Part shown: piece after piece, positions 4,712 to 61,404 of the stretch
How positions within the stretch are numbered: the stretch's first letter is position 1
Layout: the number at the start of each line of letters is the position of its first letter
Assembly (NCBI RefSeq): GCF_026151205.1
Contig: NC_087075.1
Location: 5,448,858 to 5,512,857, forward strand
DNA from: Bolinopsis microptera
Lineage: Eukaryota; Ctenophora; Tentaculata; Lobata; Bolinopsidae
Reading direction: 5' to 3'
Length of the DNA stretch: 64,000 nucleotides
Notes under the pieces: generated by a model
What the model was told of the DNA's origin: nothing
Seen by the model: only the letters and a program-made list of their open reading frames with translations
The model's database searches: none
Program-made: the position numbers and the translations under genes

Positions 4712-5190
4712 TTAAGGGCTGTTCCACACCAATTATACAGTCTTAAAATATTTCTTGTTTCATTGAATCATTCAGTCGGCTAAGCTAATTTATCATTCGA
4801 TCCCACCGCCAGCTCATTTCTGGACTTGTGTCTTATTTTCAATTTTCAATTTTCTTCGTCCATCAAATTTTCCTGAACGTCACTTATCATATATTATTAT
4901 TGACTTTTTCCGCCAAGTGACCCTTGGAAACATCATATACTAATAGAGTTTTCTGTGCCTCCAGCAGACCAAGGAGAACATTTCCTTCGTTAACTTACGG
5001 CACAATAAAGTTCTCATAGTTGTCATATTCTGGACAAAAAGTTCGAAATGGACAAATTTTTGAAAAAATTTCAACGGACTTTAACTTGGACGGACATTAA
5101 TTGAACGGACTTTATTTGAACGGACATTAAAATGAACGCTAGGGCCTCCAGCGTTCAAGTAATGTCCGTCCAAATAAGGTCCGATAAGGT
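4712..5190 (+). repeat. Hairpin-bearing dispersed repeat, copy 1
   Basis: About 480 bases matching 5537-6114 closely. Near the right end lies an imperfect inverted repeat (5106-5143 against 5148-5183, about 36-40 bp arms) that would fold as a near-continuous hairpin. Homology ends at gataaggta in both copies. The LINE at 3521-4711 sits at its left edge. Confidence 0.85.
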
Positions 5191-29800: not shown

Positions 29801-32800
29801 CCGGGCTGCTTCAACATTCTAGAAACTTTTAACTCGGTCAGATAATATAAGTAAGCTTACCTAAGATACTTTTTTACTTCTTTAATATATGTGTTTTTTT
29901 TGTAAATAAATGTGTTTTACAAAGTACTTTGAAATTGGCGAATTACCGTTACACTTGGGCCCATTCAGATTTGTTTTCATGAATAAATAAAAGGGCTTCA
30001 GGCACAATATATAAATTGAGCTTGATAAGTATTTTGATATTTAAGTACATTTTGTATACGTCATGAAGAGAATAAAAATAAATGGAGGGTATGAATGATT
30101 GGATTGATTTTGTACGTCATCAAGGCAAAAGCTAGCTGAATTACCATTATATTATATTACATTTTGAAAAGTATGACAATTATTGTTATTTTAGAAAACT
30201 ATTGTTGTTTTTATTATTGTCTCAAATACAAATTAATATCGGACTTTTATTTATTATCATTCAGAATTGGCAATGGTTGTTGCTTCCAAAAATGTAAATC
30301 ATTCCCCACTTCATTTTTACTGAATGATTCCTTCCCATTAAACACTAACTGAAACTAATGCACAGCAAATGGCCTCTTCAACAAGTTATGGCTTTATGGC
30401 TTTAAAAGTTAAAGATAGAACAAAAAAGCACTAAAAATCGACGACGAGGAAGAAAAACAAATGGGTATCGGCTGGTTGGGCTGGGGCCGCCGCAAGATCC
30501 CCATCTTGAAACCTACCCATGGACATGAAACTCTGAAAATAACTTGTTAGAATTGTGTATAATTTTAATCTCATTATATCATGCATTGCACACATCCTCA
30601 CTTCTTCAATTATTCTTATGAAGACTAAAGGGAATTAGGTGACTTCAAAGGTTCTCTTATAATCTCAGAACCTTGTATAACCAAGAATACCAAAGCAAAG
30701 GCAAATAATAATCTCAGAACTAATATTTTCAAACAAAATATAATCAAACATTCAAAAACTCAGTCGACAGATACTAGAAGAAAGTATAAAGTTGAGAAGT
30801 ATCAACTGTTTAGTAGTATTACTTTACCTTGCCCTGGTGAAGCGAGTGGTTCATGCGACGCCAGCGATCACACAAACGGAGGCAAAGCTACCTGCGAGTG
30901 AAGTGTTAAGTGCTGCGCGTTAGCACTGGGGAGCGCTTGTGCGCTGAAAGCACAAGCGCGTGAGGAGAGGAAGATGGTTGATGACGAGCAGCTCATGTTG
31001 TTACCATGACAACATTGTTACCCCGCGTTACCAACGCCCTGTCGACAGGATTGTCTCGCGCCGCATTGGCGCCCTTGTGTGCCAAAACTTATTGCGCCAC
31101 CTTTGCGCCCATGTGTGCTAAAACTATTTTCACCTAACTATCTCTTACCGTCCTTATTTTGTATCTTTATAATTGAATTTATTGTGTATTTTTTGCACAC
31201 AAAACTTTGTTCCTGCCTTGAATTCTGATCCAGTCTAGTTAATGAGGTGAGTAATGGGTGGAAAATGGTATTAATAAATGTAACAAAATATTAATAGATT
31301 TAAAATGAATTAAATGAAAGACAAATCACGTAGGACTTATTTGCAAACTTGTAACACTAATAAGGTAAGATTTGTAATTTTAGGTTACGAAAGCGTGTAA
31401 TTATTTATAAGTTGTGACACATTTAGCATTATGAACATTTTCGTGAAAATTTTAGTGTGGTGATTTTAAATCATTTGCCTCCGTTCAAATACCGGAAATA
31501 TTAAGGGGTCACCAAATTTGCAGCTTCCACGCATCAAAGTTTATCATTTTTCATTATAATTTAGCATTATCCCGTCATCAGACCTTACCAAAACAGGATG
31601 TAATAACCAGAGATTTGAGAATTTCTTCCAAAAACTTGGTCAACTTTTTAACGATATTGAAGGACCCAAAAACCAGTCCTTTGCTTTTGGCATATGATTA
31701 CCTCAATTTAGCCGTGGTCAATAAATAATGTCGCAAATAACAAACTCTGGGATGAAACATGGACACGACCAATCTCCTACACAGTAAGGAATGACCTTAT
31801 TTACGAGAATCTATATTATAAATAGGGACTGTATCAGCAAGATTGCACAAGTCTACTACGTCTGCAGGGGTGAAGAAGATAGGTAGGGATAACTGTCAAT
31901 AATACAGTTACAAAATTGTTGCGATCAATTGTGATAAGTTATCTGCACCATGTTCCCGATCTTAAATTTATAGTCACACTGGGCCGGGCCCTAACATGAA
32001 AACTGTATAACAATTCACATTCTCAATTTCCGTCTTTTTATTTGGCAAATTTTTGAATACAACATGACGTAACAATTTATGTTTTCATAATGGTTTAAAA
32101 TTTCATATTTCTATCAAATATATTAGGTATTATGAATTTTACCATTTTAGCGATCCTTGTAGTGTAATTCATATTAGTTTATTTGGTCTGTGCTTATTTG
32201 CGTTTATTTTTCCATGTAACAACTGATTGACAAGATGGCAGCATAACATGCAGATTACATGTAAAAAGATAATTAATTAATTAACTCACCAGTTTTAGTT
32301 TCAGCTACAGTCTCCTGGGAGATAATGGATTTAATTAATTTAATTAATAATTAATAATTAATATTAATAATAATAATAATTAAATAAAAAAAATTATCGT
32401 TGAATAATTTATGTGATTTGAACTATTTAACGTTAATTGCTCAGAATAGAGTTAAATGGAGAAGTATGCAAATTGCATGACTTTTGTTTTGAGAAAGATT
32501 AGGGGACAGAAATGTTTACTTTGTTTACTATCTGTTTCTTAGAGCTTTTGTTTATATAATTAATAATTGTGAAAACATGTTACTTTAAACTGCCAGTGTA
32601 TTTTTTCTTAGAGAGATTATTTAAAAATACTAACAACTTTTAAAATCGCTAATATATTATGACACTGGTCCTTATAACATGTAATCGAATCTAACTATCC
32701 TAGAATAAGATAACAAATAACCTTGGGTGGGGACAAATCTAGAGTCTCTGTTTTCATAACCTCATCTTCCTTGGTGTCCACAACATTCTCTTCCTGTGGT

Positions 32801-38258: not shown

Positions 38259-39551
38259 TTAATCGCTCATGCCATAACTTTTCTTAAACAGGTGAGTTTT
38301 TAATAATGTTTTGAACAGATCAACATCGGAACAAGTCTTAATTTCAATTGGTAGTTGGTTCCAGATTTTCGGAGCAACAGTCTGAAATGCTCTTGGGTGT
38401 GATCTTGTAGATCCGACGGGTAGGTGTAAGGAGGAAGTTCTTCTGCTACTCGAACTAACAAATGTTACTAGATCACACAGATATGCAGGAGCAACACCAT
38501 TGACTGCTTTGAAAATCAGTAAGCATAACTTAAACTCAATCCTCTCCTTCACCTTGAGCCAATGAAGGGATTTGAGCTTCTCCTCGACTGAGTCTCTCTT
38601 CTTTAATCCAAAAACCAGACGGCATGCTCGGTTCTGAATGTTCTGCAGCTGCGTAATTGAGGCTTGACTACAACCGTAGTAAAGTGCATTGCAGTAGTCA
38701 AGCGATGAGATTACAATTGCTTGAGTCAGTGTTCCCATCTGTTTGGTTGTGAGGAAAGTTTTCATCTTAGCAAGGTCTCTTAGTTTCAGAAAACACGATG
38801 TTTTAAGTTGCTTGATTTGCTCACCAAAGTTTAGTTGAGAGTCGAGACGAAATCCGAGGTTCTTTGCAACAGGTGACAGCCTGACACACGTCTCAGAGTT
38901 AACAAACACGCCCCCTATGGACAGCTGCTGGAGAACAAGCGGTGTCCCAAAGACAAGAATCTCAGTTTTTCCTGCATTGAGCTGTAGATAATGTTTTTTC
39001 ATCCAGTCATTAATTTCTTGGAAACATTTGGGAACATCGTTGATAAGGACGGTGGGCTCCTCGTTTGGCTTGAAACTTTTATACAGCTGATGATCGTCGG
39101 CGTAACCCTGGATGGAGAAGTTCAAATCATGTGCTGCTGAGTACAAAGAGCGAATGTAGATGTTGAACAGGACCGGACCCAGCACAGAGCCTTGTGGGAC
39201 TCCAAACTTAATCACTATCTCATAAGATTCCTCATTTCCAACTTTAATCGTTTGACATCTACCTGTGAGGAAGCTGCTGAACCATTTCCAAGCTGTCCCT
39301 GTTATTCCCAACTCATTTCTGAGGATGTTCAGTAGTTTGCAGTGGTCAACTGTATCAAAAGCTGCGCTGAGATCTAGGAGAAGAACAACAGTTGCCTTGC
39401 TTTCTGTAGATGCAATGAGTAGATCGTTAACAACTCTCACAAGCAGAGTCTCGGTGCTGTGTTTTGATTTGTATCCAGACTGCTGTGGGATGTTCAGGTT
39501 GTTGTTTGTAGTATCCACTATATTCAACAAACACTGAGTTATATCTTTCAC
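38259..39551 (-). CDS. L2/CR1-like LINE ORF2 fragment (reverse transcriptase)
   Basis: 430 residues. RT motifs seen: GYKSKHSTETLL, LLLDLSAAFDTVDH, GVPQGSVLGPVLFNIY, GYADDHQLY, and a C-terminal region ending KSYGMSD. The endonuclease and the first RT blocks are missing, so this is a 5'-truncated copy. The frame has no ATG at the start because it enters at the truncation. It lies between the two poly-G-tipped terminal blocks. Confidence 0.9.
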   Translation of the reverse strand: MKDITQCLLNIVDTTNNNLNIPQQSGYKSKHSTETLLVRVVNDLLIASTESKATVVLLLDLSAAFDTVDHCKLLNILRNELGITGTAWKWFSSFLTGRCQTIKVGNEESYEIVIKFGVPQGSVLGPVLFNIYIRSLYSAAHDLNFSIQGYADDHQLYKSFKPNEEPTVLINDVPKCFQEINDWMKKHYLQLNAGKTEILVFGTPLVLQQLSIGGVFVNSETCVRLSPVAKNLGFRLDSQLNFGEQIKQLKTSCFLKLRDLAKMKTFLTTKQMGTLTQAIVISSLDYCNALYYGCSQASITQLQNIQNRACRLVFGLKKRDSVEEKLKSLHWLKVKERIEFKLCLLIFKAVNGVAPAYLCDLVTFVSSSSRRTSSLHLPVGSTRSHPRAFQTVAPKIWNQLPIEIKTCSDVDLFKTLLKTHLFKKSYGMSD

Positions 39552-40493: not shown

Positions 40494-41858
40494 TTAATTA
40501 ATATCAAAAGCACGTTTAAAAAGAAACGTTTTCAGATACACTTTAAAAGATTCCAGTGACATGCAATTCTTAATTTCAAGAGGCAGCTCATTCCATAATT
40601 TAGGGCCAACTTTCTGAAACGATCTTTCTCCATACTGTGAATATACTCTTGGTTCAGTCAAATAGATAAGATGATTATAATTGGCATATTTAAACACATC
40701 ACTTAAATAATCTGGTCCCATACCATTAAGACATTTATAGACAAGAAGCAATAACTTATATTGAATTCTGTAACTAATAGGTAGCCAATGAAGGTCTTTC
40801 AGAGTGTCTCCTAGATGATCATATTTGTATAGTCCTACTATAGCTTTAGCAGCTGCATTCTGAACGAGTTGGAGTTGGTGGATGAGGTTGTCACTAATTC
40901 CATAATAAAGAGCATTGCAGTAGTCCAATTTGCAGAGAATGATGCTGTTAATTATAAGCTTGAGCTGAGCTTTACTAAATAGATATTTTCTCCTTATTAC
41001 ATTCCTAAGGAGTCTGAAACAATGCTTTTTGAGGGACATGATTTGAGGCTCAAAAGTAAGATGATGGTCAATTTGAACACCAAGGTTCTTTGTTGTGCTG
41101 ACAAATCTGATACAGGTATCATTTGATAGCTTAACTCCCCCTATACTGACCTGGTTTAGAACTTGAGGTGAGGCGATGATAAGTATTTGTGTTTTTCCAG
41201 GATTAAGTTGAAGGCAATATTCAACCATCCAGCGCTGTATGGTCCTAGCGCAATTCACAATTTGGATGCCCAGAACATTTACCTGATCACAAGGTTTGAA
41301 AGTTTTATATACCTGGTGGTCATCTGCATATCCTTGCACATTGAATCCAGATTTCTTGATGGTCCTATACAGAGATCTGATGTATATGTTGAATAGCACC
41401 GGTCCTAACACAGAACCTTGAGGTACACCAAATTCTAGAATGATCGTATCACTAGTAGAAGAGCCTATTCTGGTTCTTTGAGTGCGGCCTACCAGGAAAC
41501 TCTTGAACCATTTAAGAGCAGTACCTCCGATATGGATCTCTTCAGAAAGAATTTTGAGTAATTTTCTGTGTTCCACTGTGTCAAAGGCTGCAGATAAATC
41601 GAGCATCATGAGAACAGTGGAGGATTTGCTATCACATGCCAGCAGTAGGTCATTTGTTACTTTTAACAAGATGGTCTCAGTAGAATGGAACTTCTTATAG
41701 GCAGATTGCTGTGGAACATTGAGATCATTTTTAGCCAGATGTTCATTTAACCTTTTCAGCACAACTCTCTCGATGAGTTTACCCAGAAAAGAGAGGTTAG
41801 ATATAGGTCGATAGCTCTTGAAGTCATTTGGATCAAGTTTGTGGTCCTTGATGGTAGG
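40494..41858 (-). CDS. L2/CR1-like LINE ORF2, reverse transcriptase half (separated from its endonuclease half)
   Basis: 455 codons open from the insertion point: KDHKLDPNDFKSYRPISNLS, LMMLDLSAAFDTVEH, GVPQGSVLGPVLFNIYIR, GYADDHQVY, and an end FLFKRAFDIN. The first eight bases (41851-41858) duplicate 49590-49597, where the N-terminal half of the same ORF breaks off. The two halves are in the same frame, so the parental ORF2 was intact before insertion. Confidence 0.92.
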   Translation of the reverse strand, partial: PTIKDHKLDPNDFKSYRPISNLSFLGKLIERVVLKRLNEHLAKNDLNVPQQSAYKKFHSTETILLKVTNDLLLACDSKSSTVLMMLDLSAAFDTVEHRKLLKILSEEIHIGGTALKWFKSFLVGRTQRTRIGSSTSDTIILEFGVPQGSVLGPVLFNIYIRSLYRTIKKSGFNVQGYADDHQVYKTFKPCDQVNVLGIQIVNCARTIQRWMVEYCLQLNPGKTQILIIASPQVLNQVSIGGVKLSNDTCIRFVSTTKNLGVQIDHHLTFEPQIMSLKKHCFRLLRNVIRRKYLFSKAQLKLIINSIILCKLDYCNALYYGISDNLIHQLQLVQNAAAKAIVGLYKYDHLGDTLKDLHWLPISYRIQYKLLLLVYKCLNGMGPDYLSDVFKYANYNHLIYLTEPRVYSQYGERSFQKVGPKLWNELPLEIKNCMSLESFKVYLKTFLFKRAFDIN

Positions 41859-46971: not shown

Positions 46972-47049
46972 CTGGTAATGAGGTTAGTTATTTATAGTTC
47001 CAGTTGTATAAATGTCTCAGTTATTCACAGCGTCAGCATCATATCCGTC

Positions 47050-47560
47050 TCCCTCCCCTTTCCCTCCCCCTCCCCCTCTCAGTCTCTCCCTCTCAGTCTC
47101 TCCCTCTCCCCCTCCCTCTCAATCTCCTCCTCTCAGTCTCTCTCTCCCCTCCCCCCTCCCCCTCCCCCTCCCCCTCCCCCTCCCCCTCCCCCTCCCCCTC
47201 CACCTCCCCCTCCCCCTCCCCCTCCCCCTCCCCCTCCCCCTCCCCCTTTCCCTCTCCCTCCCCTTTTCCTCTCCCTTCTCTTTCCCTCTCCCTCTCCCTC
47301 CCCTCTCCCTCTCCCCCCTCCCCCTCTCAGTTTCTCCCTCTTCCTCTCAGCCTCTCCCTCTCCCTCTCCCTCTCCCTCTCCCTCTCCCTCTCCCTCTCCC
47401 TCTCCCTCTCCCTCTCCCTCTCCCTCTCCCTCTCCCTCTCCCTCTCCCTCTCCCTCTCCCTCTCCCTAGCTTCATAGCCGTCTCCTTCCTCCCTCCTCCC
47501 CTCCCCTGTCCCTATCCTTCTCCTTTTCCCTCTCTGTCCCTGTCCCTCTCCCTCTCTGTC
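47050..47560. repeat. Polypyrimidine satellite, CCCTCT and CCCCCT units
   Basis: C/T only on the plus strand for most of its length. 47157-47247 is mainly ccccct and 47340-47466 is a pure ctccct array. The long proline, serine or leucine frames here are artefacts. Confidence 0.95.
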
Positions 47561-47718: not shown

Positions 47719-47945
47719 CCCTCTCCCTCTCCCTCTCCCTCTCCCTCTCCCTCTCCCTCTCCCTCTCCCTCTCCCTCTCCCTCTCCCTCTCCCTCTCCCT
47801 CTCCCTCTCCCTCTCCCTCTCCCTCTCCCTCTCCCTTTCCCTAGCTTCATAGCCCTCTTCTTCCTCCCTCCTCCCCCTCCCCCTGTTATGTCCCTCTCCC
47901 TATCTTTCTCCTTTTCCCTCTCTGTCCCTCTCCCTCTCCCTCTCC
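47719..47945. repeat. Second polypyrimidine satellite array
   Basis: ctccct units in 47719-47835, then less regular copies. tagcttcatagcc follows the pure array at both this and the previous locus, so the two arrays look like a duplicated block. Confidence 0.95.
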
Positions 47946-48513: not shown

Positions 48514-49597
48514 GATATCGGGATATTATGTGCAAGTTATTATTAACATTTATTTTGCAGTTGTTAATCATAATGCAACGTCCAAGCTATAAACATATTT
48601 GCAATTTCTTTCCGACATGAAAATCACGGCTAGTTTGGCGTCTGATAATGGATAGTGCTTTAATTTGAAAATAAAATCATTCTAGATATAAAATTTGCCG
48701 AGTCTAAATCCTATTTTTAATACGAAAAAAGTGTATCCGCATTACCTATCTTTGTTGATTACGAAAGTGATAATGTAAATATCAAACTTTAATTATTTTT
48801 ATGAGAAGAAATGCTTGTATTATTTAGTTAGTCCCACAAAACAGTGCAGTCAAACCGCAGTTTACTGTTAATGTATGTTCCATAATTTTACGGCAATGCG
48901 AATATCATCTCTCTTTTGTTCATAACTCTTGGCTTCAGAGGTGTGAATTTTTATAGTTCCACAAAATTAAACGATATGAATTATAATGCATAACAATTAA
49001 CATATAACAACATGATTTTTATCTGGTTGATGATATCATAAATCTGTTATGGGGGTTTCGGCTACAAAATATAGATCGTTTGAGATAGCAGCAATAAACT
49101 AAAACAGAATATTGACAGTTAAATCACCAATTTGATCTATGAAGTATCTGTTATAAAAATAGCTTATTATTTAATTGAAAATCACGCACAATTTACTAGA
49201 GTCATGTTAGCTTAGCACGCTGGATTATATTACGGACAGTAACACGCCAAGCTTATTTTGTAATAAAATTTCAATGCCAGCATTTACATTGCGCATAACG
49301 CGCGCAAATTATTCCTTGGCTGGTCTGAATCGACCAATCAGAACCGTTATTCCCATTATTCCCTCAGATTCCTCCAATCAGAGGCCTGAGTGCACGAAAA
49401 AGCAAATTTCAAAGGTATAATCAGCATTTCATTGGAATAACACGCGCATCATTTGGCGAGGTATAAAACTTCCGTTTACTGACTTACTATTTCATTATTA
49501 GGGGATGAATCTGCTTCTTTTCAACATGGAATTCCTGCCTGAAACCAGTAGGAATATTATTCCCATATTCCTTCAAATTTCGCACCGGGATGGTAGG

Positions 49598-51076
49598 AAT
49601 AATGTCAGCAGTCTTCAAACCGTCGAATGTGCCCTTAGCTAGAGACTGGTTGACCAGTTTGCATAAGACAGGAATGAAACTTGTGATATTGTCTTTGAGG
49701 ACAGTTGTTGGAAGAAAATCAGATGGTGCACACTTGATTCCACTTTCTTTGATTATTTCAGACAGCTCATCCTCTGTGCATGGTTCAAATTCATATAACC
49801 GACCTCCACAGTTGGAATTGTTCTGTTGATTCATAATGTGTTTATCAACATCAAAATCTTCTATGCTGGGGAAATCTTTCCTAATGTTCTTGATCTTTTC
49901 ATTGAAATAGTGATTAAAATCACTGCAAAGTTTTGAAACATCTTCTGATTCTGGGAGAGGAGTATTCTGATGTCTGTCAAGCTCACGATTGACAATGCTA
50001 TATATAGCTTTAACATCATGTTGATTTTTGTCAAGTAAACATTTATAATACTGTTGTTTTTTAAGATTAGCCATGTTCGTTGTTTCATCTCGGATCTCTT
50101 CAAAGAGTATCCTGTTCTCCTCACTTTTATGCTTAGTTCTCTCGGCTTTCCTTCTAAGTTTCCTTTGATCTTTGTACTCAGAATCAAACCAGGGAGCATT
50201 GGGAACAAAGCTTATAGTCTTTTGGACCAAAGGTGCATGTTCATCGAGGACACTACCAATACATTGGAAGAATTGTTCACAAGATTCAACAAAGCAGTCT
50301 GCCAATTCATAGTCAGAGGAACACATCAGTAAATCAATCGCCAACTGATCACAATCCACGGTTTTAAGCTGTCTAGTGTTGATTGTTTTAGGAGCTTTGA
50401 GGTTAGTTTGAAACTTCTTGGTGGCAAATATGATGGGGAAGTGATCACTCAGGGTACAGTTTTTCAGGATTTCAATTGTAGACGTTTCAATCAAGTTACT
50501 CTGGTCAAAGAGCAGGTCAATAGTTCCTCCACTCATGTGGGTCGGATTTTCAATAAGTTGCTTGAAACCATAAGATGAGGTGGTCTGCAGCAGTTCAGTT
50601 GAGTTTACAGTAATTGACTCTGTGTGAATATTGAAATCTCCTCCAATTATTATATAGTTACTTTTCAGACTTGCAGAACCCAATAAGTCATCAAGTTCCT
50701 CAAAGAACTTCTTTGAGACAGGGCCAGTTCGATAGATGCATAGGACAAGGATCTTCATGTCAGGAGTGCACTTTATAGATCCAGCGATGAATTCAAAGGT
50801 TGTCAGGTTCGGAACTTTCAAATTAACAACAGAGAAATGTAACGCCATGTTGTAAATCAGAGCAGTGCCACCACCTCTGTTGTTTGCTCTGAAATCATGA
50901 ACAATACTGTAGCCATATGATTTAATAACTGCTGTTGTAGTATTGGCTTGGTCAGATAGCCATGTTTCAGTTACAATAGCAACGTCTACATCATGGTCTT
51001 GAAGTAAGCACATAATGTCGTCACACTTATTATTAAGACTTCTAGCATTCCAGATCATATATCGAAGTTGATGCAA
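49598..51076 (-). CDS. L2/CR1-like LINE ORF2, endonuclease half
   Basis: An exonuclease-endonuclease-phosphatase fold: MIWNARSLNNK, VAIVTETWLS with the catalytic Glu, IIGGDFNIH, and TLSDHFPI with the Asp-His pair. A linker then leads to the start of the RT region at DIIPTI. Beyond 49597 the frame runs into the inserted element (to 49487) and loses homology. The first true ATG is in MIW at about 51058. It starts about 20 bases after the ORF1 stop at 51097. Confidence 0.92.
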
Positions 51077-51096
51077 TTTCTTTGGTTTGGAGGAAA

Positions 51097-51285
51097 CTAG
51101 TTTTTTGAATAATAAGCTAGGGAGGCTTTAAGTTTCTCTTGCTGAACCCGGTAAGAAGGACACTCAGTAGAAAATGCAGCATGTTTACATAAATCATCAG
51201 GTGAGCCAGACTTTTTGCAGTTGATACAACAGTATGTGGGCATTAGATCATTTTTCATCATTTCAACACTACTATATAACAAATA
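51097..51285 (-). CDS. LINE ORF1 C-terminal remnant with zinc knuckle
   Basis: Residues TYCCINCKKSGSPDDLCKH, then TECPSYRVQQEKL, form a Cys-His knuckle typical of the end of ORF1 in L2/CR1-type LINEs. It sits directly before ORF2 on the same strand. The rest of ORF1 is missing; the 5' truncation lies at about 51280-51330, next to the plus-strand LINE. Confidence 0.75.
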   Translation of the reverse strand, partial: YLLYSSVEMMKNDLMPTYCCINCKKSGSPDDLCKHAAFSTECPSYRVQQEKLKASLAYYSKN

Positions 51286-51339
51286 ATTTGAGGTATGACC
51301 AAAGTAATACGAATGTAATACGAATGTAACGTTAATGGA

Positions 51340-53253
51340 ATGGAACAAATCTCACATGTGAACTCTTCAATTTGCTTCAATTCAAATCAACAACTTAATT
51401 CAAATCATCAACTCAATATCATGGACGATTCAATGGAAAAATTTTTTGGAAAACTATTGTCGGAATGTGATCAAAAATGCAAAAACTGTACTGCACTCAA
51501 ATCTCATGTCAAGTTTCTCGAGCGGAAAGTGATCATCCTAGAAGACATTGTTCAAACTTCTCAGACTATAGCAGAGATTAATGGTACGTTGTTACATCAA
51601 AGTACCAATCAGTCAATAGATTATCGGGCTGTCCTGGATAGGTGTTCAGATGTTGCAGTTCAGACAGAATTTGAAAACGATCAGATTGAATATGACAGTG
51701 AATGTGAGGTGCCTGAATCCTTCATGCTAATCAATAGTGATGGCATCATTGAAGCACCAGATTCTATCATTTCCAACAACACAGAAAATCAAATCAGTGA
51801 GAGTACAGGATCTGTCAATCCATGGAGTGGCAAGTATTATGCTGAAATAGATGTAACACCCATATCTAGTGTGGCCTTAAGTGTAAATGACGAAAGCCCT
51901 GACATTATCATACCACCTGTTGAACTCATTGATCAGGCACCGTTTCAAAAATTCTCCTTAGACATCTTCCTGAGAGAATTGGATTTTAGCCACCAGTTTC
52001 AAAATAGGAAAACAGCTTACTTTGGGGACTTCCCATATGTGTATAATGGGGGAAGTCACGAGGCGAAGGAGATACCACATCAGTCCTATCTGGCTGCTAT
52101 CTGTTCATATCTTGATGTGTTACTCCCGGATTATGTTTACAACAGTGCTCTCGTTAACTACTACAGTACTGGGACAGAATGCATGCCTATCCATAGTGAT
52201 AATGAAGAATGCATCGATGAAAACTCTTACATTGTTACAGTTTCTCTGGGTGCCTCTAGGACGATGCAGTTCACAGAAATTCAAACAGGAAAAGTGGTGT
52301 CTGCCCTAGATCTAAAGCATGGGGATGTTTGTATCATGTCTAAAAAATCCCAGCTTCATTACAGACATGAAATCTGTACTCAACCATCTTGTACAAACAA
52401 AAGGATCAGTATCACATTCAGACTGATCAAACCTGTAGCTGTTGTCCAAAGATTAACAAGTACACCAACCAACATGTGCAATGACAATTACCATGACCCA
52501 TATGAAAACATCTCCAACTCCAGCGGCTATGTACCTTATCAAGAAGACGAGTTTATAGTTCATCCATCAAGGAAAACGAATGGTGCTTATCAGCACCGAC
52601 CTCTAACCCCACCCTATACATCTCCACCACCCCATCAATCAGGGCGGCATGTTAACAGACAACAATTGTTCGAAAAGGAGACACCCAACGATGTGAGCAC
52701 AGTTTATATCAGCAGCAGCATCTTCAGGCATCTGAATGAAAAACTGTTGAGCTCTTCATCTCAGAAGGCCAAAGTATTTTTCTACCCAGGGGCCAACTCA
52801 ATCCAAATGTCCCAAAGACTCTTTAGTGACAGTCAGTTCAAAGTTCTCAACAAAGAAAAGGTTAAAAAGGTTGTTTTACTAACTGGTACTAACTGTGTTG
52901 ATCCAATTGACCTCAACACAATGAACTTCAACAGTGCCACCAATGACATGGAAGAATTTGTTCAAAAATTGTGGGCAGAATTTAATAGTGCAAAAATATA
53001 TATCTTAAATATTCTGCCTAGAGCTGTCACTAGTAAGAACATTATAGTGCAGGGACTTAATCGATACTTAGAGAATATGTGTTATAAGCATGGGCTAATA
53101 TACATTAACACAGAACATGAAAATAATCTCTTTACTTTAAATTATAATAGAAAGGACAAGTATTTTGGCAGGGGCCATGACAATGTGCACCTCAATAAGT
53201 TAGGAATTGCCAGGCTTGGTAAGCATCTCAAATATGTAACTCACTTGTGTTAA
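51340..53253 (+). CDS. LINE ORF1 with AlkB-type dioxygenase and SGNH hydrolase domains
   Basis: 637 residues. A short coiled coil (about 40-80) with a Cys-pair (KCKNC) leads to an acidic linker. At about 205-365 lies an AlkB-like Fe(II)/2-oxoglutarate oxygenase: NYYSTG, H285-S-D287 (IHSDNE), H343 (YRHEI) and R355/R361 (KRISITFR), so the metal triad and co-substrate arginines are all kept. AlkB enzymes remove alkyl groups from nucleic-acid bases by oxidation. At about 455-637 is an SGNH/GDSL-type hydrolase: YISSSIF with a candidate serine, LTGTN near 515 and DNVHLNKLG near 613-616 with the Asp-His. Esterase domains are known in CR1-type ORF1s. The ORF lies 291 bp before the plus-strand ORF2, same strand, no visible boundary between them. 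Confidence 0.85.
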   Translation: MEQISHVNSSICFNSNQQLNSNHQLNIMDDSMEKFFGKLLSECDQKCKNCTALKSHVKFLERKVIILEDIVQTSQTIAEINGTLLHQSTNQSIDYRAVLDRCSDVAVQTEFENDQIEYDSECEVPESFMLINSDGIIEAPDSIISNNTENQISESTGSVNPWSGKYYAEIDVTPISSVALSVNDESPDIIIPPVELIDQAPFQKFSLDIFLRELDFSHQFQNRKTAYFGDFPYVYNGGSHEAKEIPHQSYLAAICSYLDVLLPDYVYNSALVNYYSTGTECMPIHSDNEECIDENSYIVTVSLGASRTMQFTEIQTGKVVSALDLKHGDVCIMSKKSQLHYRHEICTQPSCTNKRISITFRLIKPVAVVQRLTSTPTNMCNDNYHDPYENISNSSGYVPYQEDEFIVHPSRKTNGAYQHRPLTPPYTSPPPHQSGRHVNRQQLFEKETPNDVSTVYISSSIFRHLNEKLLSSSSQKAKVFFYPGANSIQMSQRLFSDSQFKVLNKEKVKKVVLLTGTNCVDPIDLNTMNFNSATNDMEEFVQKLWAEFNSAKIYILNILPRAVTSKNIIVQGLNRYLENMCYKHGLIYINTEHENNLFTLNYNRKDKYFGRGHDNVHLNKLGIARLGKHLKYVTHLC

Positions 53254-53544
53254 ACTTCATTAAAATTCTATAATCCAAGGGTATCAACATGAATAATAAC
53301 AGGATTACTGTTTTATCTGGTTTAAAATGTTAGATCAGCACAAATTTCTAATAACTTAATGTTTTTATATCTCTCAAGCTATATTTATCACAAACAGAAG
53401 TGAGTTACTATTTTATGCTGTTAAATTTTATGATTTAAACTGCAGTATGATTGCTGATCCGAAATCCAATTTAAATCATATGTATGACATGATTTGAAAC
53501 TTAGTCTACTTGGGGAGACTGCATGTGGATTTGTTCCCCATTAG

Positions 53545-53715
53545 CTTTGGTTTAACCTTATTCGTACCTCAATAAACGATAATCTCTCTCTTGGTCTATG
53601 TAATATACAGGGTGGCCTGACTAATCTGGCAAAAACTCTCGAACTACAGGAGCTAATATTTCGCGAAAAGCTTGACATAATTGGAATTAATGAGACAAAC
53701 CTTAAATCTGATATA
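53545..53715 (+). CDS. LINE ORF2 start (endonuclease N-terminus), cut by a LINE insertion
   Basis: The frame opens after TAG 53542-53544 and encodes LGLCNIQGGLTNLAKTLELQ, then LDIIGINETNLKSDI, the first endonuclease strands with the catalytic Glu. At 53715 it meets the (TTTA)n tail of the inserted minus-strand LINE. It continues in the same frame at 57152. No ATG is seen near the beginning; re-initiation or an unusual start would be needed. Confidence 0.75.
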
Positions 53716-56700
53716 AATAAATAAATAAATAAATAAAGTCAATTTTTACAGCACAGCAATATATATCTAAATATCAGATCCTCTGTAATCATAATGTATA
53801 AAAAAAGGAGCTTTTCTCTGTGCTGAAGGATGAATCAAGGCAGATCATGGTTCTGTTAGCAGGCCACCCTAGTTATGGACAATACATATATATAAAATAA
53901 TTAAATTATAATTTTAAAATTGTGTCAAGATTGAACTAAAACATAACTCAGGGTAAAATAGACGTATTCCCTTCGTCAAATTAACTATTTACAATACTAA
54001 ACTTAAACGAACTCCGAGTAAAATAAACGTAATCCCTTTGTCAAACTTGCTATTTACAATAAGTTAATAAATTAATACGGTTGAAAATTATTTCATATTC
54101 AATAACAATGTAGCATCAATATAATTGATACAAATGAGGAGCATACAGCGAGAATTGCACATAACAGGAGGACTGGAGGTATGGAGCAATAATGATTGAC
54201 AGTGCACCTTTCCACTGATGTTCCTAATTTCCTGTAATAGCTTAATAGGCATGGAAATACTTTGATTGCAGGGGATAGATTGGATTCACTTATGTACTGA
54301 GATAACTTAACCGAAATAACATAACTGCCTAGATACATTGGCTAGTGTTGGGTGGGATCATGAATTTATCGTAAGAGTTATCCCCTTGGTAATTCTCATC
54401 AGTTAGCAACATATTCATAAGAGTTTCTTTGTATAACTTAGAAAATTTCTTAACGTCGTCACACTCTCTAAGGGACTTTGGTAATATGTTCCAGGCCTTA
54501 GTTCCTAGATAGTTAAACTCCTTGTGAGATCTTGATTTAGGAGTATAAAGATTGCAGTTTTCTGCCTCACGTGATCCACCAGAAATATACGAGAATTTCC
54601 CGATAAAATGCTTTGGACATGTTTCATTGATTATACGGTACATATATGAGCTAAGATGAACCTGTCGTCTCAAATGGAGAGGAAGCCATCCCATATTTTT
54701 GTATACATTAACCGACCTCTCTCTGATGTTTACATCTAGGGCTATTTTAGCAACCTTTTTGTACATGATATCTAACTCTCCTAGTCGTTTTTTATATGTT
54801 CTTGACCAGATGGTGTCTAAGTAGTCAAAATGTGGCAACATAAGTGCATTAGCAAACATCTTCCTGAACTTGAGAGGGAGAAGTTTTTTTGATCTATACA
54901 TAGCACCAATTCTTTTGGATATCTTTTTCTTAATGTTATCAATATGTTCATTAAATGTCAATCTGCTGTCAACTATAAGTCCAAGGTACTTATGGGATTC
55001 AGTTTCACAGATTACCAAAGTAAGGTCATCACAAATTTCAACAAGGATGGCATCAAGGTTAGGCTTAGAGTCAAGGATCATTAGTTTTGTTTTTTCATTA
55101 TTCAGGGATAGTTTATTAGCCTGAAGCCATCTGATAACTAATTTCAACTCTTGTTTGATGTTACCATAGTTTCCTCTAGATATATTGTCAAAATATAATG
55201 CACCGTCATCAGCAAATAGATAAGGTTTAGAAAATAGGCATGCATTAGGCAGGTCATTGATAAAAATGCTGAATAGAATTGGTCCTAATATACTTCCTTG
55301 AGGCACTCCAGAGTTCAATGAATGTAAACTGCTTATCCTACTCCCAACTCTAGTTTGCTGTAATCTATCTGTGAGGAAGCTCCTAAACCAGCTCAATGCA
55401 GTATTTTTTATTCCATAATGCTTCAGCTTTTGAATGAGAATATCATGGTTAACAGTATCAAATGCCTTTCTGATGTCCAGGAAGATAATTGCAGGATGCT
55501 TGGCACTGTTCTTAGCAGTAAATATACGATCAAACAGATCTAACATGAGATAAGTTGTAGAGTGATCTTTACGGAAACCATATTGATGCTCTGAAAGTAT
55601 TCCCTTTTCATCAAGATATTGAGTCAGTTGGGAGTTCACACAAAATTCGATGCACTTTCCAAGAATCGGTAAAATTGAGATTGGTCGATAATTACTAGGA
55701 TTCTCAGTATCACCATCCTTATGGATTGGGGTGACTTTTGCAACCTTGCAGCTATTTGGCATGATGCCACTGGATAAACTCAAATTTACAAGATGTGTTA
55801 ATGGAGCAATAAATGCAGGTAAAATTTGTCTAAACACTCTCAATGGTATATGATCATTAGTGGATTTGCTACAAGGGATACTTGCCACATAGTCTAAGAT
55901 ATTGGACTCAGTTATTTCAGTAAAGCTATTCAAGCTGGTCTCGTTGTCAATCTGCTCATTTTGTAGATAAGATAGAAATTCATTTTCATTTTCCAGCTGC
56001 ACTTCTGCTTGGATCTTTGGACCTATTTCAGCAAAATATTTATTGGTGGTTTCAGCATCAAGATTGTTATTGATATTGTTAGCTTTAACAGGCAGATTTG
56101 ATGCTGTCTTTATCGTTTTCCATACACCCTTTAGATCATTCATGGCACACTTGGCTTTCAGTTCTGTTGTTAAGTTAGTCTTCCTATTAATTCTAGACAA
56201 ATAGGTTGAATAGTTTCTCTGCCGTTTATATGCCATCCATAATGAGTCACATTTATTACAGTGTATAAGACCATTTGGATGTATACGTCTGTTCTTGTTG
56301 TGTGTTAAAAATTTACGGTAAAGTTTCCCTTTCAATTTCTTACTTTCTAAAAATTCTGGAGATGGCTTATGGATGTAATCACTATGGCACTTAATTTGTT
56401 TAATTGGACAGAAGTGATCATAGTAGTGATCAATATGTTCGTTTAAACCATCAACTGCATCATTCAGACTAGTTGAATCTATTATTGGTCTATAATCACA
56501 GGTTTCCAAAAATTCTTTAAGAGCAGTAACATTCATTTTGCTGTGATCTCTTATTAGTAACTTCTTGAATTTTGAGGCCTTATGCACATTGAAATCGACA
56601 ATGAACTTTACGACCTGATGATCTCCTATACAATCATCAAGGACTTTGCAGTCAAGAAACTTGGAGTAAGTGTTTGTTATGACAACATCGATTGTGGTCT

Positions 56701-57146
56701 TTGTGATTCTGTTTCCTAGTTTAGCAATGCGGGTAATATCCTGAACTACCTGTACCATTCCAAACATTTTCATTGTAATGTCTAATTTCTTATAGTTCAT
56801 ACTGCTGATGTTGTTTTGGTCTACATTTACATCACCCAGCCAAATAACATTCTTACTTCCTATACTCATCATGCAGTCTGTCATATAATCTAAAAATTTG
56901 TCAAGAGGACTAAACAACTCAGATCTGTAGAAACAGCAGATGAAAATATTGCAATCTGTAAGATGGATCCAAATAGCCTCGATTTGGTCATATTGCAAAA
57001 CTAAGTTTAGTTGAATCATTTTAAACTTTATGTGCTCACTGATGAGAATGCCACATCCCCCATGACCATTGTCGTTAGGACGGTCTTTGCGGATAAAAGT
57101 AAAATTCTTGGGTAGGTTTAGACTGGCTGAGTCAATATCCGACTTA
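53716..57146 (-). mobile_element. Minus-strand CR1-like LINE inserted in the plus-strand LINE
   Basis: ATATA at 53711-53715 and 57147-57151 flanks the insert. Its 3' end carries (TTTA)n at 53716-53738. The 5' end is truncated within the endonuclease. The 3' UTR has a tandem duplication of about 65 bp (53945-54066). Confidence 0.85.
54329..57145 (-). CDS. CR1-like LINE ORF2 (endonuclease, truncated start; reverse transcriptase)
   Basis: The frame enters at KSDIDSASLNLPKNFTF. An ATG at 57019 is internal. Seen: DRPNDNGHGGCGILI, LGDVNVDQN, CIGDHQVVK; RT blocks NYRPISILPILGKCIEFCV, FLDIRKAFDTVNHD, GVPQGSILGPILFSIFINDL, YLFADDGALYF, and the C-terminal block WNILPKSLREC. No internal stop, so the copy is fairly recent, but the missing N-terminus leaves the endonuclease incomplete. 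Confidence 0.93.
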   Translation of the reverse strand, partial: KSDIDSASLNLPKNFTFIRKDRPNDNGHGGCGILISEHIKFKMIQLNLVLQYDQIEAIWIHLTDCNIFICCFYRSELFSPLDKFLDYMTDCMMSIGSKNVIWLGDVNVDQNNISSMNYKKLDITMKMFGMVQVVQDITRIAKLGNRITKTTIDVVITNTYSKFLDCKVLDDCIGDHQVVKFIVDFNVHKASKFKKLLIRDHSKMNVTALKEFLETCDYRPIIDSTSLNDAVDGLNEHIDHYYDHFCPIKQIKCHSDYIHKPSPEFLESKKLKGKLYRKFLTHNKNRRIHPNGLIHCNKCDSLWMAYKRQRNYSTYLSRINRKTNLTTELKAKCAMNDLKGVWKTIKTASNLPVKANNINNNLDAETTNKYFAEIGPKIQAEVQLENENEFLSYLQNEQIDNETSLNSFTEITESNILDYVASIPCSKSTNDHIPLRVFRQILPAFIAPLTHLVNLSLSSGIMPNSCKVAKVTPIHKDGDTENPSNYRPISILPILGKCIEFCVNSQLTQYLDEKGILSEHQYGFRKDHSTTYLMLDLFDRIFTAKNSAKHPAIIFLDIRKAFDTVNHDILIQKLKHYGIKNTALSWFRSFLTDRLQQTRVGSRISSLHSLNSGVPQGSILGPILFSIFINDLPNACLFSKPYLFADDGALYFDNISRGNYGNIKQELKLVIRWLQANKLSLNNEKTKLMILDSKPNLDAILVEICDDLTLVICETESHKYLGLIVDSRLTFNEHIDNIKKKISKRIGAMYRSKKLLPLKFRKMFANALMLPHFDYLDTIWSRTYKKRLGELDIMYKKVAKIALDVNIRERSVNVYKNMGWLPLHLRRQVHLSSYMYRIINETCPKHFIGKFSYISGGSREAENCNLYTPKSRSHKEFNYLGTKAWNILPKSLRECDDVKKFSKLYKETLMNMLLTDENYQGDNSYDKFMIPPNTSQCI

Positions 57147-57151
57147 ATATA

Positions 57152-59977
57152 GACACTAGTACACTTAACTTCCCCTTAAACTTTGATTTTATAAGGTGTG
57201 ATAGACCTAACGATAGAGGAAGAGGAGGGTGTGGTATATTGATCAACCAAAATGTTAACCACAAATTACTCAATTTAGATATAACCTACTCTGATATTTC
57301 TAAAATCGAAGCTATATGGATACAACTCAAGGACGCCAATCTTTACATTTGCTGCTTCTACAGATCACAAAACTTTTGTCATCTAGATACTTTCCTTGAT
57401 TATATGACTGAATGTATGATGAAACTTCAAGGTAAGAAAGTAATATGGATTGGCGATGTTAATGTTAACCAAAACTCTTTATCTGATCTAGATTATAAAA
57501 AGTTAGATATAACAATGAAGCTCTTTGGAATGATACAGACTGTTACAGGAATTACTAGAGTTGCAAACTTAGATGGTAGAATAACGCAGAGCACAATAGA
57601 TGTTGTAATGACTAACTGTTACTCTAATTTCATAGAGTGTAAAGTACTTGATGATAGAATAGGAGATCACCAAGCTCTCAAATGTGTTCTCGACTTTAAA
57701 GTAAATAAAGCTAGTAAATTCCAGAAGGTCCTTATTAGAGACCACTCCTTAAACAATCTAAAAGCATTAAGCTATTTTCTGGGATCCTGCAGTAACTACA
57801 GTAATATTCTAAGCTGTACTAATGTAGACCATGCCCTAGATGGACTTAATCATCACATCCAGGAATCGTATGACAATTACTGTCCACCTAAACAGATAAA
57901 ATGTAATAGTAACTTTCTTTGTAATCCCTCTAAAGAACTGTTGGCAGAAATACGGAAGAAGAAGATGCTTTTCAGAAAGTATAAAAAGTGTTTAGGACAA
58001 TTAAACAAATTCAAGTGTAATTGTATTAATGGAATATGTAAATGCAGAAAAAGTGAACTACATAAGAAATGCTCTACTTCGTGGGATAACTATCGTCCCC
58101 AAAGAAACTATGTGACAAAATTATCCAAAGAAAACAGACGTACAAATATTGTTCAGGACCTTACTGTGAAAAGTGCAAAAAACGATTTGAAAGGTATTTG
58201 GAAAACTATCAAACATGCTTCAAACTTACCTGGAAAAATAAGTAGCTCTTCCCCAAGCAACTTAAATGTGAACGGAGTTAACCTGCATTTTGCCACAGTT
58301 GGTACAATAATACAAGAATCGATTAAGGAAAAGGATTCAGACGACTTCCTAGAATATATGCCGCCTCCAACAGAGTGTAAACTCTCTGTATTCGAAGAGG
58401 TGACTGTTGAACAAGTAAAAGAATATATACTCAGTATACCATCAGATAAATCGATTAACGATATCATGCCCATTAAAGTATATAAGTATATTATTCCCCA
58501 AATCATCGATCCAGTAGCTCATATTATAAACCTTAGTATGAAAAGTGGAACAATGCCGTTGGCATGTAAAATTGCATCAGTCACTCCAATTCTTAAAACT
58601 GGTGACCCTAATGATCCAAATAACTACCGGCCAATATCCATACTCCCCCTACTTGGAAAATGCATAGAATATTTTGTTAACCAACAGCTTACAGAGTATG
58701 TTGAAACCAATAAACTGCTTACCAACCATCAGTATGGATTTAGAAAAGATCATTCCACCACTTTTCTAATGCTTAATCTATTTGATAAAATATTTACGTC
58801 TAAGGAATCACAGAAGAAACCTGCAATTGTATTCTTAGATATTAAAAAGGCCTTTGACAAAGTAAGCCATAATATTTTATTAAAAAAACTTAAGTATTAT
58901 GGAGTTGATGGCTTTGTCATAAAGTGGTTCAAAAGCTACCTTGGGGACAGAAAGCAGCACACCAAAATACGTGGTAATGTAAGCACATCACTCCCTGTTA
59001 AAACAGGTGTGCCACAGGGTAGCATATTAGGACCAATTCTATTTAGTTTATTCATAAATGATCTCAGTAGAAATTGCACACAATCTACTGTTTACTTATT
59101 TGCAGATGACAGTGCACTATATTTTGATAACATTTCCCGAGGCATATATGAGAATGTAATTAAGGATATGAAAATTGTGTATGAATGGCTTAGAATCAAC
59201 AAGCTGAGGCTAAATGCTGCAAAATCTTCATTCATTGTATTTGATAGATCACCTAATCTGGACACGTTGTCAATCCCTCTGGATTTGGAAAAAGAATGCC
59301 TATTTATAGAAGAAACTAAATCTCAAAAATATTTAGGTCTCATGATAGACAATTTATTGAACTTTCAAGACCATATTGATTATGTGAAATCAAAAATTGC
59401 TAAAAGAATAGGGGCATTATACAGGTCCAAAAATCTTCTTCCACTGAAATATAGAAAAATGTTTGTAAATGCTCTTATGCTCCCCCAATTTGACTACCTG
59501 GATATAATATGGTGTAGGGCTGCCAAAACCAAACTTAATTCTCTTGATATATTATACAAGAAAGTAGCAAAAATTGCTCTGGATGTTCATTGGCAGGAAC
59601 CATCAGTAAATGTATATCGAAATATGAAGTGGTTACCCTTACACTTAAGAAGACAACTCCATCTATCAACGTATATGTATAAAATTCTTAATGAGGCTGC
59701 ACCATCATCATTCACAGATAAATTTTCTTATGTATCCGGAGGATCACGTGATGCTGAGAGGTGCAACCTTTATATTCACAAATCAAGAACACACAAAACC
59801 TTTACATATTTAGGTGCAAAATGTTGGAATACAATTCCAGAGAACATAAGGACTATAGAATGTAGTGTAAAATTCTCACAATGTATGAAATCTAAATTTA
59901 TGTCAGATGTAATTCAAGGAGTCTCATCCTATGAAATAAACAATAGTTTCGACTATTTCTACACTCTAGCTATGTGA
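57152..59977 (+). CDS. LINE ORF2, rest of endonuclease and reverse transcriptase
   Basis: 942 codons including stop: FIRCDRPNDRGRGGCGILI, GDVNVNQN, DRIGDHQAL (endonuclease Asp-His); then RT blocks NYRPISILPLLGKCIEYFV, VFLDIKKAFDKVSHN, GVPQGSILGPILFSLFIND and YLFADDSALYF with the FADD catalytic pair; the end contains a WNTIPENIR block. A Cys-rich insert (CNCINGICKC) precedes the RT. The family resembles the minus-strand LINE at 54329-57146. The 3' UTR runs to about 60300. Confidence 0.92.
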   Translation, partial: DTSTLNFPLNFDFIRCDRPNDRGRGGCGILINQNVNHKLLNLDITYSDISKIEAIWIQLKDANLYICCFYRSQNFCHLDTFLDYMTECMMKLQGKKVIWIGDVNVNQNSLSDLDYKKLDITMKLFGMIQTVTGITRVANLDGRITQSTIDVVMTNCYSNFIECKVLDDRIGDHQALKCVLDFKVNKASKFQKVLIRDHSLNNLKALSYFLGSCSNYSNILSCTNVDHALDGLNHHIQESYDNYCPPKQIKCNSNFLCNPSKELLAEIRKKKMLFRKYKKCLGQLNKFKCNCINGICKCRKSELHKKCSTSWDNYRPQRNYVTKLSKENRRTNIVQDLTVKSAKNDLKGIWKTIKHASNLPGKISSSSPSNLNVNGVNLHFATVGTIIQESIKEKDSDDFLEYMPPPTECKLSVFEEVTVEQVKEYILSIPSDKSINDIMPIKVYKYIIPQIIDPVAHIINLSMKSGTMPLACKIASVTPILKTGDPNDPNNYRPISILPLLGKCIEYFVNQQLTEYVETNKLLTNHQYGFRKDHSTTFLMLNLFDKIFTSKESQKKPAIVFLDIKKAFDKVSHNILLKKLKYYGVDGFVIKWFKSYLGDRKQHTKIRGNVSTSLPVKTGVPQGSILGPILFSLFINDLSRNCTQSTVYLFADDSALYFDNISRGIYENVIKDMKIVYEWLRINKLRLNAAKSSFIVFDRSPNLDTLSIPLDLEKECLFIEETKSQKYLGLMIDNLLNFQDHIDYVKSKIAKRIGALYRSKNLLPLKYRKMFVNALMLPQFDYLDIIWCRAAKTKLNSLDILYKKVAKIALDVHWQEPSVNVYRNMKWLPLHLRRQLHLSTYMYKILNEAAPSSFTDKFSYVSGGSRDAERCNLYIHKSRTHKTFTYLGAKCWNTIPENIRTIECSVKFSQCMKSKFMSDVIQGVSSYEINNSFDYFYTLAM

Positions 59978-60366
59978 CAACTGAAACAAATTTTATGGTG
60001 CTGGAGTTTTTGTCGGGTGGAAAGGCCCCCTGCGTTATATATGACATATTTCCAGAAGTATAGAACTTTAAACATCTCCTTTACTCGTTCCCATTTGTTA
60101 TCATTGCCAATCTATTATTGTTCTATACTTCTCTGTTTATAACTTTAAATAACATTACTAACGTAATCCCAAAGTGGGCATCTATGTAATCTTAATTGTT
60201 ACCTTCATGCCCACAGTTCACTGTTAAATCATATCTTATTTTATCACTCATTAATTTATTACTCATTATTTTTTACATACTATATCCTTATGTCCCTAGA
60301 AGGGTGTTCTGCTAACAGTTTTCGACTGACTTGAATGTCCTGCACAGCAGATTGAAGCTTCTTAAA

Positions 60367-61404
60367 TTATTTTTTATTCTTATTGTATTGCTGTGTAAAT
60401 TTGATTCTAATTCTAATTTTCTCCTCTGAATTGTTGTCCTTATTATCACATTGTTGAGTTTCATGTCCAGGGGCGGCGCAGAAACCACAATACACTTCGT
60501 TTTTACAAGTCTTAGAATAGTGACCAAAGCCTTGACACTTGTTACATCTCTTTATGTAAAGTTGGTCATACACTTGGCAAGACAGTAAACCAAAGAACAA
60601 CCTGTTATTATTATCTCGTATAGCAATTCTAATATTATCACTCAACCTTATGATGGCTTGTTTGATATTTTGGTTTGCACGGAGAGGTTTCACAGACAGA
60701 ACATCAAACAGTGAACAGTCTGCTTTGAGGCAGTGAGAAATGTAAGGATTTTGCTTCAGGATGGTGTTCCTTATCTCTTCTTTGTGATCTCTATTAAAAT
60801 CCTTAGGTAGACCAACAACTGAGATAGTGGGATATCTTTGCTTTGGTTCTTTCAGTTGATTAGCAGCTATACCTGATGATATCAGCTCTGTCTTCAGATT
60901 ATCTCGTGAAGCTTGGGTTGGTAATATGAGTACTTGATCACCATTACTATCAACATATTGCTTATGAACCTGGATACCATTATCAACCACTGTTTTTTCT
61001 AGATCTTTACATGGAACATTAGCACCTTTTGTAACAACCAGCAAGGATTTTGTTCTTATTTCATCGAGCCACACGTTCTCGCCCTGATCAGTAGCTGGTT
61101 TCAAGGTACACTGTGCTTTGGCTATCGAGATGAGATTATCAACAGGGGAATGGTTAATAGATTTCCCAGCAATTACATTCTCCAATAATTTCTTAATCTC
61201 TGTGACATCACTAGCTAAGTGTGTTACTCGGTTGTCAAGTACCTGAACATGATCATTAGTTGTGCTAGTCTGCTTCACTTGATGATGTGTAAAGCAAGGA
61301 TCACACATAAAGAGAAAGTTTCCCATATGTTGTTCTTTACTTTTGTTAGAACTGTTTTGTACAAAAGCTGTGTAGAAAGACTTGGTACAGGGATTATTAG
61401 GCAT
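60367..61404 (-). CDS. LINE ORF1-type protein with double zinc knuckle
   Basis: 345 residues. The N-terminus has spaced Cys/His (CDPCFTHH), then a coiled coil (VLDNRVTHLASDVTEIKKLL) and an RRM-like region (YPTISVVGLPKDFNRDHKE). The C-terminus has two knuckles: CNKCQGFGHYSKTC and CGFCAAPGHETQQC. This is the nucleic-acid-binding ORF1 of CR1/L2-type LINEs. No ORF2 follows on its strand; the neighbour is the end of the plus-strand LINE, so it is an orphan fragment. An open stretch continues beyond its stop (KKLQSAVQDIQVSRKLLAEH). Confidence 0.85.
   Translation of the reverse strand: MPNNPCTKSFYTAFVQNSSNKSKEQHMGNFLFMCDPCFTHHQVKQTSTTNDHVQVLDNRVTHLASDVTEIKKLLENVIAGKSINHSPVDNLISIAKAQCTLKPATDQGENVWLDEIRTKSLLVVTKGANVPCKDLEKTVVDNGIQVHKQYVDSNGDQVLILPTQASRDNLKTELISSGIAANQLKEPKQRYPTISVVGLPKDFNRDHKEEIRNTILKQNPYISHCLKADCSLFDVLSVKPLRANQNIKQAIIRLSDNIRIAIRDNNNRLFFGLLSCQVYDQLYIKRCNKCQGFGHYSKTCKNEVYCGFCAAPGHETQQCDNKDNNSEEKIRIRIKFTQQYNKNKK

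Follow-up and report, generated by a model that had tools for sequence, protein, structure and literature searches.

An esterase-type LINE ORF1 with an intact-looking AlkB dioxygenase domain in the ctenophore Bolinopsis microptera

The window, by which we mean the whole stretch of 64,000 nucleotides analysed here (B. microptera, NC_087075.1, positions 5,448,858 to 5,512,857 of the forward strand), contains at 51261..60418, on the plus strand, a copy of a LINE referred to as family A. Its anatomy was established by comparison of 19 fetched stretches, the window itself being one of these, and its segments are common to loci L009-L015. The copy opens with the final 32 nt of a spliced leader of the ctenophore type, shortened here at its 5′ end (51261..51292), followed by ORF1, which encodes 637 amino acids (51340..53253). 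Residues 48-87 form a long helix in the AlphaFold2 model, probably a coiled coil (51481..51600), residues 190-367 an AlkB dioxygenase domain of the ALKBH2/3 type (51907..52440) and residues 451-637 an SGNH hydrolase domain (52690..53250). ORF2 starts on the same strand with the first 57 codons of its open frame (53545..53715, mapped from L010) and is then interrupted, within the endonuclease, by another LINE, so that family A sequence runs up to 53715 and resumes at 57147-60418. The nested element (53716..57146, minus strand) is a 5′-truncated family C LINE of 3.4 kb without its ORF1, 99.1-99.5% identical over its length to L021-L024 (in two pieces in L022), and its own ORF2 part (EN-RT) occupies 54329-57019 according to Pfam. 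It is bordered by a target duplication, ATATA (left copy 53711..53715, right copy 57147-57151), the empty site being seen in L010; a target duplication is demonstrated only for this nested copy. The remainder of the family A ORF2 (EN-RT; 57147..59977, RVT_1 2.8e-39), again mapped from L010, is followed by a 3′ untranslated region and the start of a TTCTAA-type tail (59978..60418). Since the nested LINE splits ORF2, the window copy is incapable of producing a whole ORF2 protein; an unbroken ORF2 frame of 996-998 codons is present in several other copies.

The hallmarks of a LINE are present, as ORF2 matches both Exo_endo_phos and RVT_1 (APE-type endonuclease and reverse transcriptase) and the tail is of the TTCTAA type. 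A Ty3/gypsy-type AlkB element is ruled out by this EN-RT ORF2, in which Pfam finds no RNase H or integrase match, and by the ends of the copies, which consist of leader and tail repeat. Rfam gave no match at gathering score over 51000-61000. In the ORF2 frame of L010 (family A), no in-frame ATG precedes the start of the endonuclease, the first one being codon 142, and in that of L021 (family C) the first ATG is codon 39, inside the endonuclease start motif; translation of ORF2 may begin at a non-AUG codon or by another route. The window also holds further retroelement pieces with RVT_1, RNase H or endonuclease matches (56-3151, 3756-4727, 38259-39551, 40494-41762 and 49487-51076), long C+T-rich tandem arrays of a 6-base unit (47044-47556 and 47719-47945) and two neighbouring ADAR-like ORFs (24657-27092 and 27982-29817, minus strand) with adenosine-deaminase (editase) and dsRNA-binding domains.

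A sequence-only reading of this locus had described ORF1 as a LINE protein in which an apparently intact AlkB dioxygenase is fused to an SGNH hydrolase. This description is borne out by profile matches to both domains, by the fold and by the kept catalytic residues, and we regard it as nearly certain that ORF1 is a LINE protein with an intact-looking AlkB domain flanked by a probable coiled coil and an SGNH domain. A first homolog search returned 78 proteins, 53 of which were aligned with P0001 to give 54 rows, the other 25 being excluded by length and coverage. At E 0.01, Pfam recognizes AlkB in all 54 rows and Lipase_GDSL_2 in 47, and the iron triad, both arginines, E289, Y235, S460, G516 and N518 are invariant. 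To remove the effect of this selection, the residues were recounted in 86 homologs (P0002-P0087), 80 of which have an AlkB match of enough coverage. The HxDxE motif (H285, D287, E289) is found in 80/80 domains, H343, R355 and R361 (iron and 2-oxoglutarate pair) in 79, with one gap, and Y235 in 78, with two gaps. The N-x-Y 2-oxoglutarate pair, N273 and Y275 in the window copy, is kept in 37/80 and 70/80 domains, respectively. Judged by these residues, the domain looks catalytically competent.

The AlkB part of the window ORF1 has a double-stranded beta-helix fold, and its nearest solved relatives, by profile as well as by fold, are ALKBH3 and ALKBH2, the substrates of which are m1A and m3C. This kinship and the conserved tyrosine, which corresponds to Tyr143 in ALKBH3 (PMC10816986), suggest an m1A/m3C substrate. 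No ALKBH5 or FTO chain occurs among the 42 profile matches to solved structures at E 0.01, nor among the 50 fold matches listed, and both sequence and predicted fold point to ALKBH2/3 rather than to the m6A eraser ALKBH5. This bears on a possible role in counter-defence, as proposed for an orchid Ty3/gypsy element, whereby AlkB would free the RNA of the element from a mark written by the host, be it m6A or some other, and so allow it to escape decay or silencing. Seven MT-A70 methyltransferase matches in the genome and the m6A demethylation achieved in vitro by the AlkB protein of an orchid element (PMC9289625) would be in line with such a role. The orchid domain is, however, ALKBH5-like, whereas the LINE domain is nearest to ALKBH3/ALKBH2, and we consider counter-defence unlikely.

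The proposed catalytic residues of the SGNH domain, S460, G484, N518, D614 and H617, are kept in 54, 53, 54, 52 and 51 of the 54 rows, respectively, and a profile made from these rows matches 77 of the 78 homologs, including 24 of the 25 outside its building set. The domain is basic (net +9, pI 9.5). When it was compared alone with solved structures, one irrelevant match at E 0.29 was returned and ZfL2-1 was not found. Near the N-terminus, C47 and C50 are present in 28/54 and 30/54 rows; an N-terminal zinc finger/leucine zipper characterizes the type IVB subtype of ORF1. Because the esterase is not the sole enzyme domain, AlkB being present as well, this ORF1 is best viewed as a variant of type IV (esterase) ORF1. 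ORF1 proteins with an esterase are thought to form multimers and bind membranes, and lack a known, structured RNA-binding domain (PMC3905857); no RRM is detected by Pfam in the window ORF1 either. The AlkB fold might accordingly be imagined as a nucleic-acid-binding module that replaces the missing RRM, catalysis being secondary or absent. Yet the domain is acidic (net -5) and keeps its iron and 2-oxoglutarate residues in 79-80 of 80 cases, which makes this explanation very improbable.

A search of the genome (264.65 Mb, 232 contigs) in which 69 of 808 candidates were scored, so that the counts are lower bounds, gave at least 97 matches to ORF1. Family A comprises at least eight full-length, stop-free copies at 99-100% identity, window included, family B at least 14 nearly full-length copies at 59-60%, and family C at least 29 copies with the AlkB part at 49-53%; these LINEs have apparently been active recently. 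Had ORF1 and ORF2 belonged to unrelated elements, a possibility that the sequence-only reading had itself raised, they would not be expected to recur together. ORF2 lies downstream of ORF1 on the same strand in 8/9 family A and 13/14 family B copies, which rejects that possibility for these two families, the gap in the window being the nested family C LINE. The same arrangement was seen in 6 of the 20 family C copies tested (out of 29), the genome search for ORF2 having scored 46 of 6664 candidates, and in 4/4 fetched family C loci, ORF2 being broken in L023. Moreover, in five ORF1/ORF2 homolog pairs the longest contigs of the two partners are equal in length (5883, 2407760, 513782, 5585 and 5431 bases). 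This suggests that the partners share a contig, and does so best where the length is 2407760 or 513782 bases. Eight of the 78 ORF1 homologs carry a species name, Mnemiopsis leidyi in every case, and one gene model of this species (P0076) holds both RVT_1 and AlkB. A separate observation concerns P0124, a relative of ORF2 with 56% identity. Its metagenome-assembled genome bears the label Tenacibaculum sp., and it perhaps represents animal DNA binned with a bacterium. Chance or a local artefact is rejected by the many copies. The separation of ORF1 from most of ORF2 by the nested element could be taken to mean that a host AlkB gene has joined a LINE in a single, local fusion, or that the two frames come from unrelated elements; however, in view of the numerous copies in three families, the Mnemiopsis homologs, and host-type ALKBH2 and ALKBH3 genes that sit elsewhere and branch apart, the probability of this is negligible.

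Comparison of families A and B makes an exchange of ORF1 directly visible: their ORF2 proteins are 98.6% identical (dS 0.041) as against 59.5% for ORF1, and the sequence common to both families begins at window position 53560. In a tree of ORF2 with 12 rows, in which the window is present twice and from which L009, L011 and L026 were excluded as too short, the five family B copies form one clade (support 1.0) inside the spread of family A; divergence in ORF2 is 0.59-2.16% among A copies and 1.06-2.58% between A and B. Near-identical ORF2 with divergent ORF1 implies that one ORF2 lineage recently exchanged the ORF1 it had, taking on another, related one of the AlkB-SGNH type. Reticulate evolution of ORF1 has been described in the Jockey superfamily (PMC4120745). 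The dN/dS ratio, computed across copies as had been proposed, is 0.14 for the AlkB domain between A and B (66.3% identical amino acids, dN 0.22), a rough value given that dS, at 1.6, is near saturation; dS is saturated for SGNH between A and B, and for both domains between A and C. The AlkB domain is nonetheless under constraint, and its rank is a clearer sign of this than dN/dS. It is better kept than SGNH both between A and B (66.3 vs 52.4%) and between A and C (54.0 vs 38.0%), and roughly on a par with ORF2 (55.3% between A and C).

The 32 nt leader has a single match in the window and none in shuffled sequences, and its 32-mer occurs in 1121 exact copies in the genome, as compared with 0 for the control. 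A similar spliced leader is described in another ctenophore, Hormiphora californensis (PMC8527503). Of 17 LINE copies inspected, 16 carry a leader of this kind at the 5′ end (7/8 in family A, 5/5 in B and 4/4 in C); L015 is devoid of one, and the leader is shortened in the window copy and in L010. The hexamers that follow the leader are of 14 different kinds in 18 places (20 fetched loci, two pairs of which represent the same place). Numerous leader copies with varied flanks are what would be expected for a spliced leader brought into the genome by retroposition. GTATGA, which comes after the leader in the element and might have been a remnant of unspliced leader RNA, is not among the 14 hexamers and is therefore taken as element sequence. 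In each of families A, B and C, one and the same element sequence is found behind two or more different leaders; across the window and L009-L024, at least three ctenophore-type spliced leaders occur at LINE 5′ ends. The simplest reading is that the LINE RNA that was copied had probably been trans-spliced. It is conceivable that the AG end of the leader itself might act again as an acceptor.

AlkB is not confined to these families. With 150 of 587 candidates scored, the genome contains at least 151 matches to PF13532. Long open frames hold most of those listed, and frames of 551, 593, 676 and 707 amino acids are among those with AlkB. An ORF of 843 amino acids (L052; L052 and L053 correspond to G000:C1:21678600-21682500) has AlkB first (1.6e-22) and a weak SGNH match last (0.0079), in which DS, GVND and DxxH motifs are visible. 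Downstream of it are a weak endonuclease-like start (0.012) and, in another frame, a reverse transcriptase (2.5e-28) that is only 31% identical over 183 amino acids to that of family A; this is a second, distant LINE, the ORF2 of which has apparently decayed. In addition, a frame of 3388 amino acids (L051, G000:C10:16874500-16878000) has an SGNH match (7.5e-5, under the cut-off) upstream of AlkB (2e-21), and Helitron_like_N is found in all six AlkB frames of at least 2225 amino acids, L051 included. AlkB thus lies beside SGNH in three arrangements in one genome, L051 being the only Helitron frame read. The earlier identification of an AlkB-SGNH LINE ORF1 stands, with two amendments: a further LINE is inserted in this copy, and AlkB is no isolated oddity, being present in Helitrons as well as in LINEs of at least two kinds.

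Host-type ALKBH2 (L048, 3.6e-60) and ALKBH3 (L049, 4.6e-40) sit elsewhere in the genome. In a tree of 89 of 96 AlkB domains (P0072, P0058, P0076, P0080, P0083, P0087 and human ALKBH2 having been dropped for want of a match or coverage), they group with human ALKBH3 in a single clade (100) that excludes the LINE ORF1 domains, which argues against host capture of the LINE ORF1 AlkB. The Helitron and second-LINE domains attach near the host clade with weak support (49 and 87). A viral source was sought by scanning viral contigs with two patterns, both covering the SGNH part only; the 44 pattern matches included no relative. It is tempting to speculate that AlkB and SGNH make up a cassette of two enzymes, which unrelated mobile elements of ctenophores have either shared or put together more than once, and which serves to remove a methyl lesion or a mark of the host from their single-stranded intermediates. 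We regard this as rather doubtful; if true, it would imply an arms race over nucleic-acid methylation in which elements carry their own demethylases, with more than 100 AlkB domains per genome. Helitrons move through single-stranded DNA, and the presence of AlkB in those of this genome would also be compatible with a DNA substrate, in which case AlkB would act on single-stranded cDNA, on the nicked target or on the DNA of the element and rid it of methyl lesions or marks. Indeed, ALKBH2 and ALKBH3 act on DNA (PMC10816986, PMC10377887). ORF1 proteins are, however, thought to package RNA (PMC3905857), and a DNA substrate appears improbable.

Our preferred reading, held tentatively and with slightly less than even confidence, is that the AlkB-SGNH ORF1 protein demethylates the element's own nucleic acid for full-length copying. 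Methylated bases of the m1A/m3C type block reverse transcriptases. The activity, its substrate, the order of events and the benefit would be as follows. The coiled coil would multimerise the protein on the trans-spliced element RNA and the basic SGNH domain would dock the particle on membranes, as proposed for zebrafish ZfL2-1 ORF1p; AlkB, with Fe(II), O2 and 2-oxoglutarate, would then strip m1A/m3C-type methyl groups from single-stranded RNA, perhaps also from cDNA, and the methyl-free template would be copied to full length by ORF2p. Such action on the element's own RNA, which the sequence-only reading had suggested by analogy, is plausible, AlkB fitting as an enzyme on the nucleic acid packaged by the ORF1 protein, and is supported by the retention of AlkB, its linkage to EN-RT and an SGNH domain that is basic like the lipid-binding ZfL2-1 esterase (PMC3905857). 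On the other hand, a Helitron with AlkB and SGNH has no RNA template, so that repair of RNA templates cannot cover every case; the need common to these elements would rather be tied to a host mark, or to single-stranded nucleic acid of whatever kind. The acidity of AlkB and the incomplete retention of N273 and Y275 also speak against the mechanism. Alternatively, AlkB might act on other cell RNA or protein, for instance on tRNA methylation, in favour of element translation or growth; AlkB homologs do demethylate DNA, RNA and protein (PMC10060643), but we find this highly unlikely. Since the copies are young and often stop-free and the key residues are known, a catalytic mutant could be compared in an ordinary retrotransposition assay.

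If demethylation of its own nucleic acid is confirmed, this would be an animal LINE with its own nucleic-acid demethylase, raising the question of whether transposition is limited by methyl lesions, or by marks that the host places, on the RNA or DNA of elements, and whether the elements counter these enzymatically. No AlkB in a LINE was found in the open-licence literature, as far as the available portions of PMC6015446, PMC9289625, PMC8141815, PMC4120745, PMC5408684, PMC3905857, PMC8857917 and PMC3136472 extend; the terms AlkB and dioxygenase are absent from the main text of PMC4120745, and AlkB and oxygenase from PMC3905857. The closest known counterparts are the type IV ORF1 proteins of CR1/L2 LINEs such as ZfL2-1, which likewise have an N-terminal helix and a C-terminal basic SGNH domain upstream of EN-RT, and no RRM (PMC3905857, PMC4120745, in the parts available), but differ from the window ORF1, which has AlkB between helix and SGNH. 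Human ALKBH3 and ALKBH2, about 23-24% identical to the LINE domain in structural alignment, are cellular repair enzymes, and ALKBH3 belongs to a separate clade. A GDSL esterase module also occurs in bdelloid LTR and Athena elements and is in this sense common to different retroelement classes, although there it sits in ORF3 without AlkB (PMC5408684, available text). Plant RNA viruses too are mobile RNA genomes that encode AlkB, for which RNA repair has been proposed (PMC9289625), but as part of the viral replicase. The orchid Ty3/gypsy element is likewise a retrotransposon with an AlkB demethylase; it differs in being a plant LTR element with an ALKBH5-like domain in a separate ORF, and a fusion to SGNH goes unmentioned in the accessible text (PMC9289625). 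Thus, AlkB was already known from orchid Ty3/gypsy retrotransposons and RNA viruses; what we rate as new is that a LINE ORF1 of the esterase type has a second enzyme, one that modifies nucleic acid.
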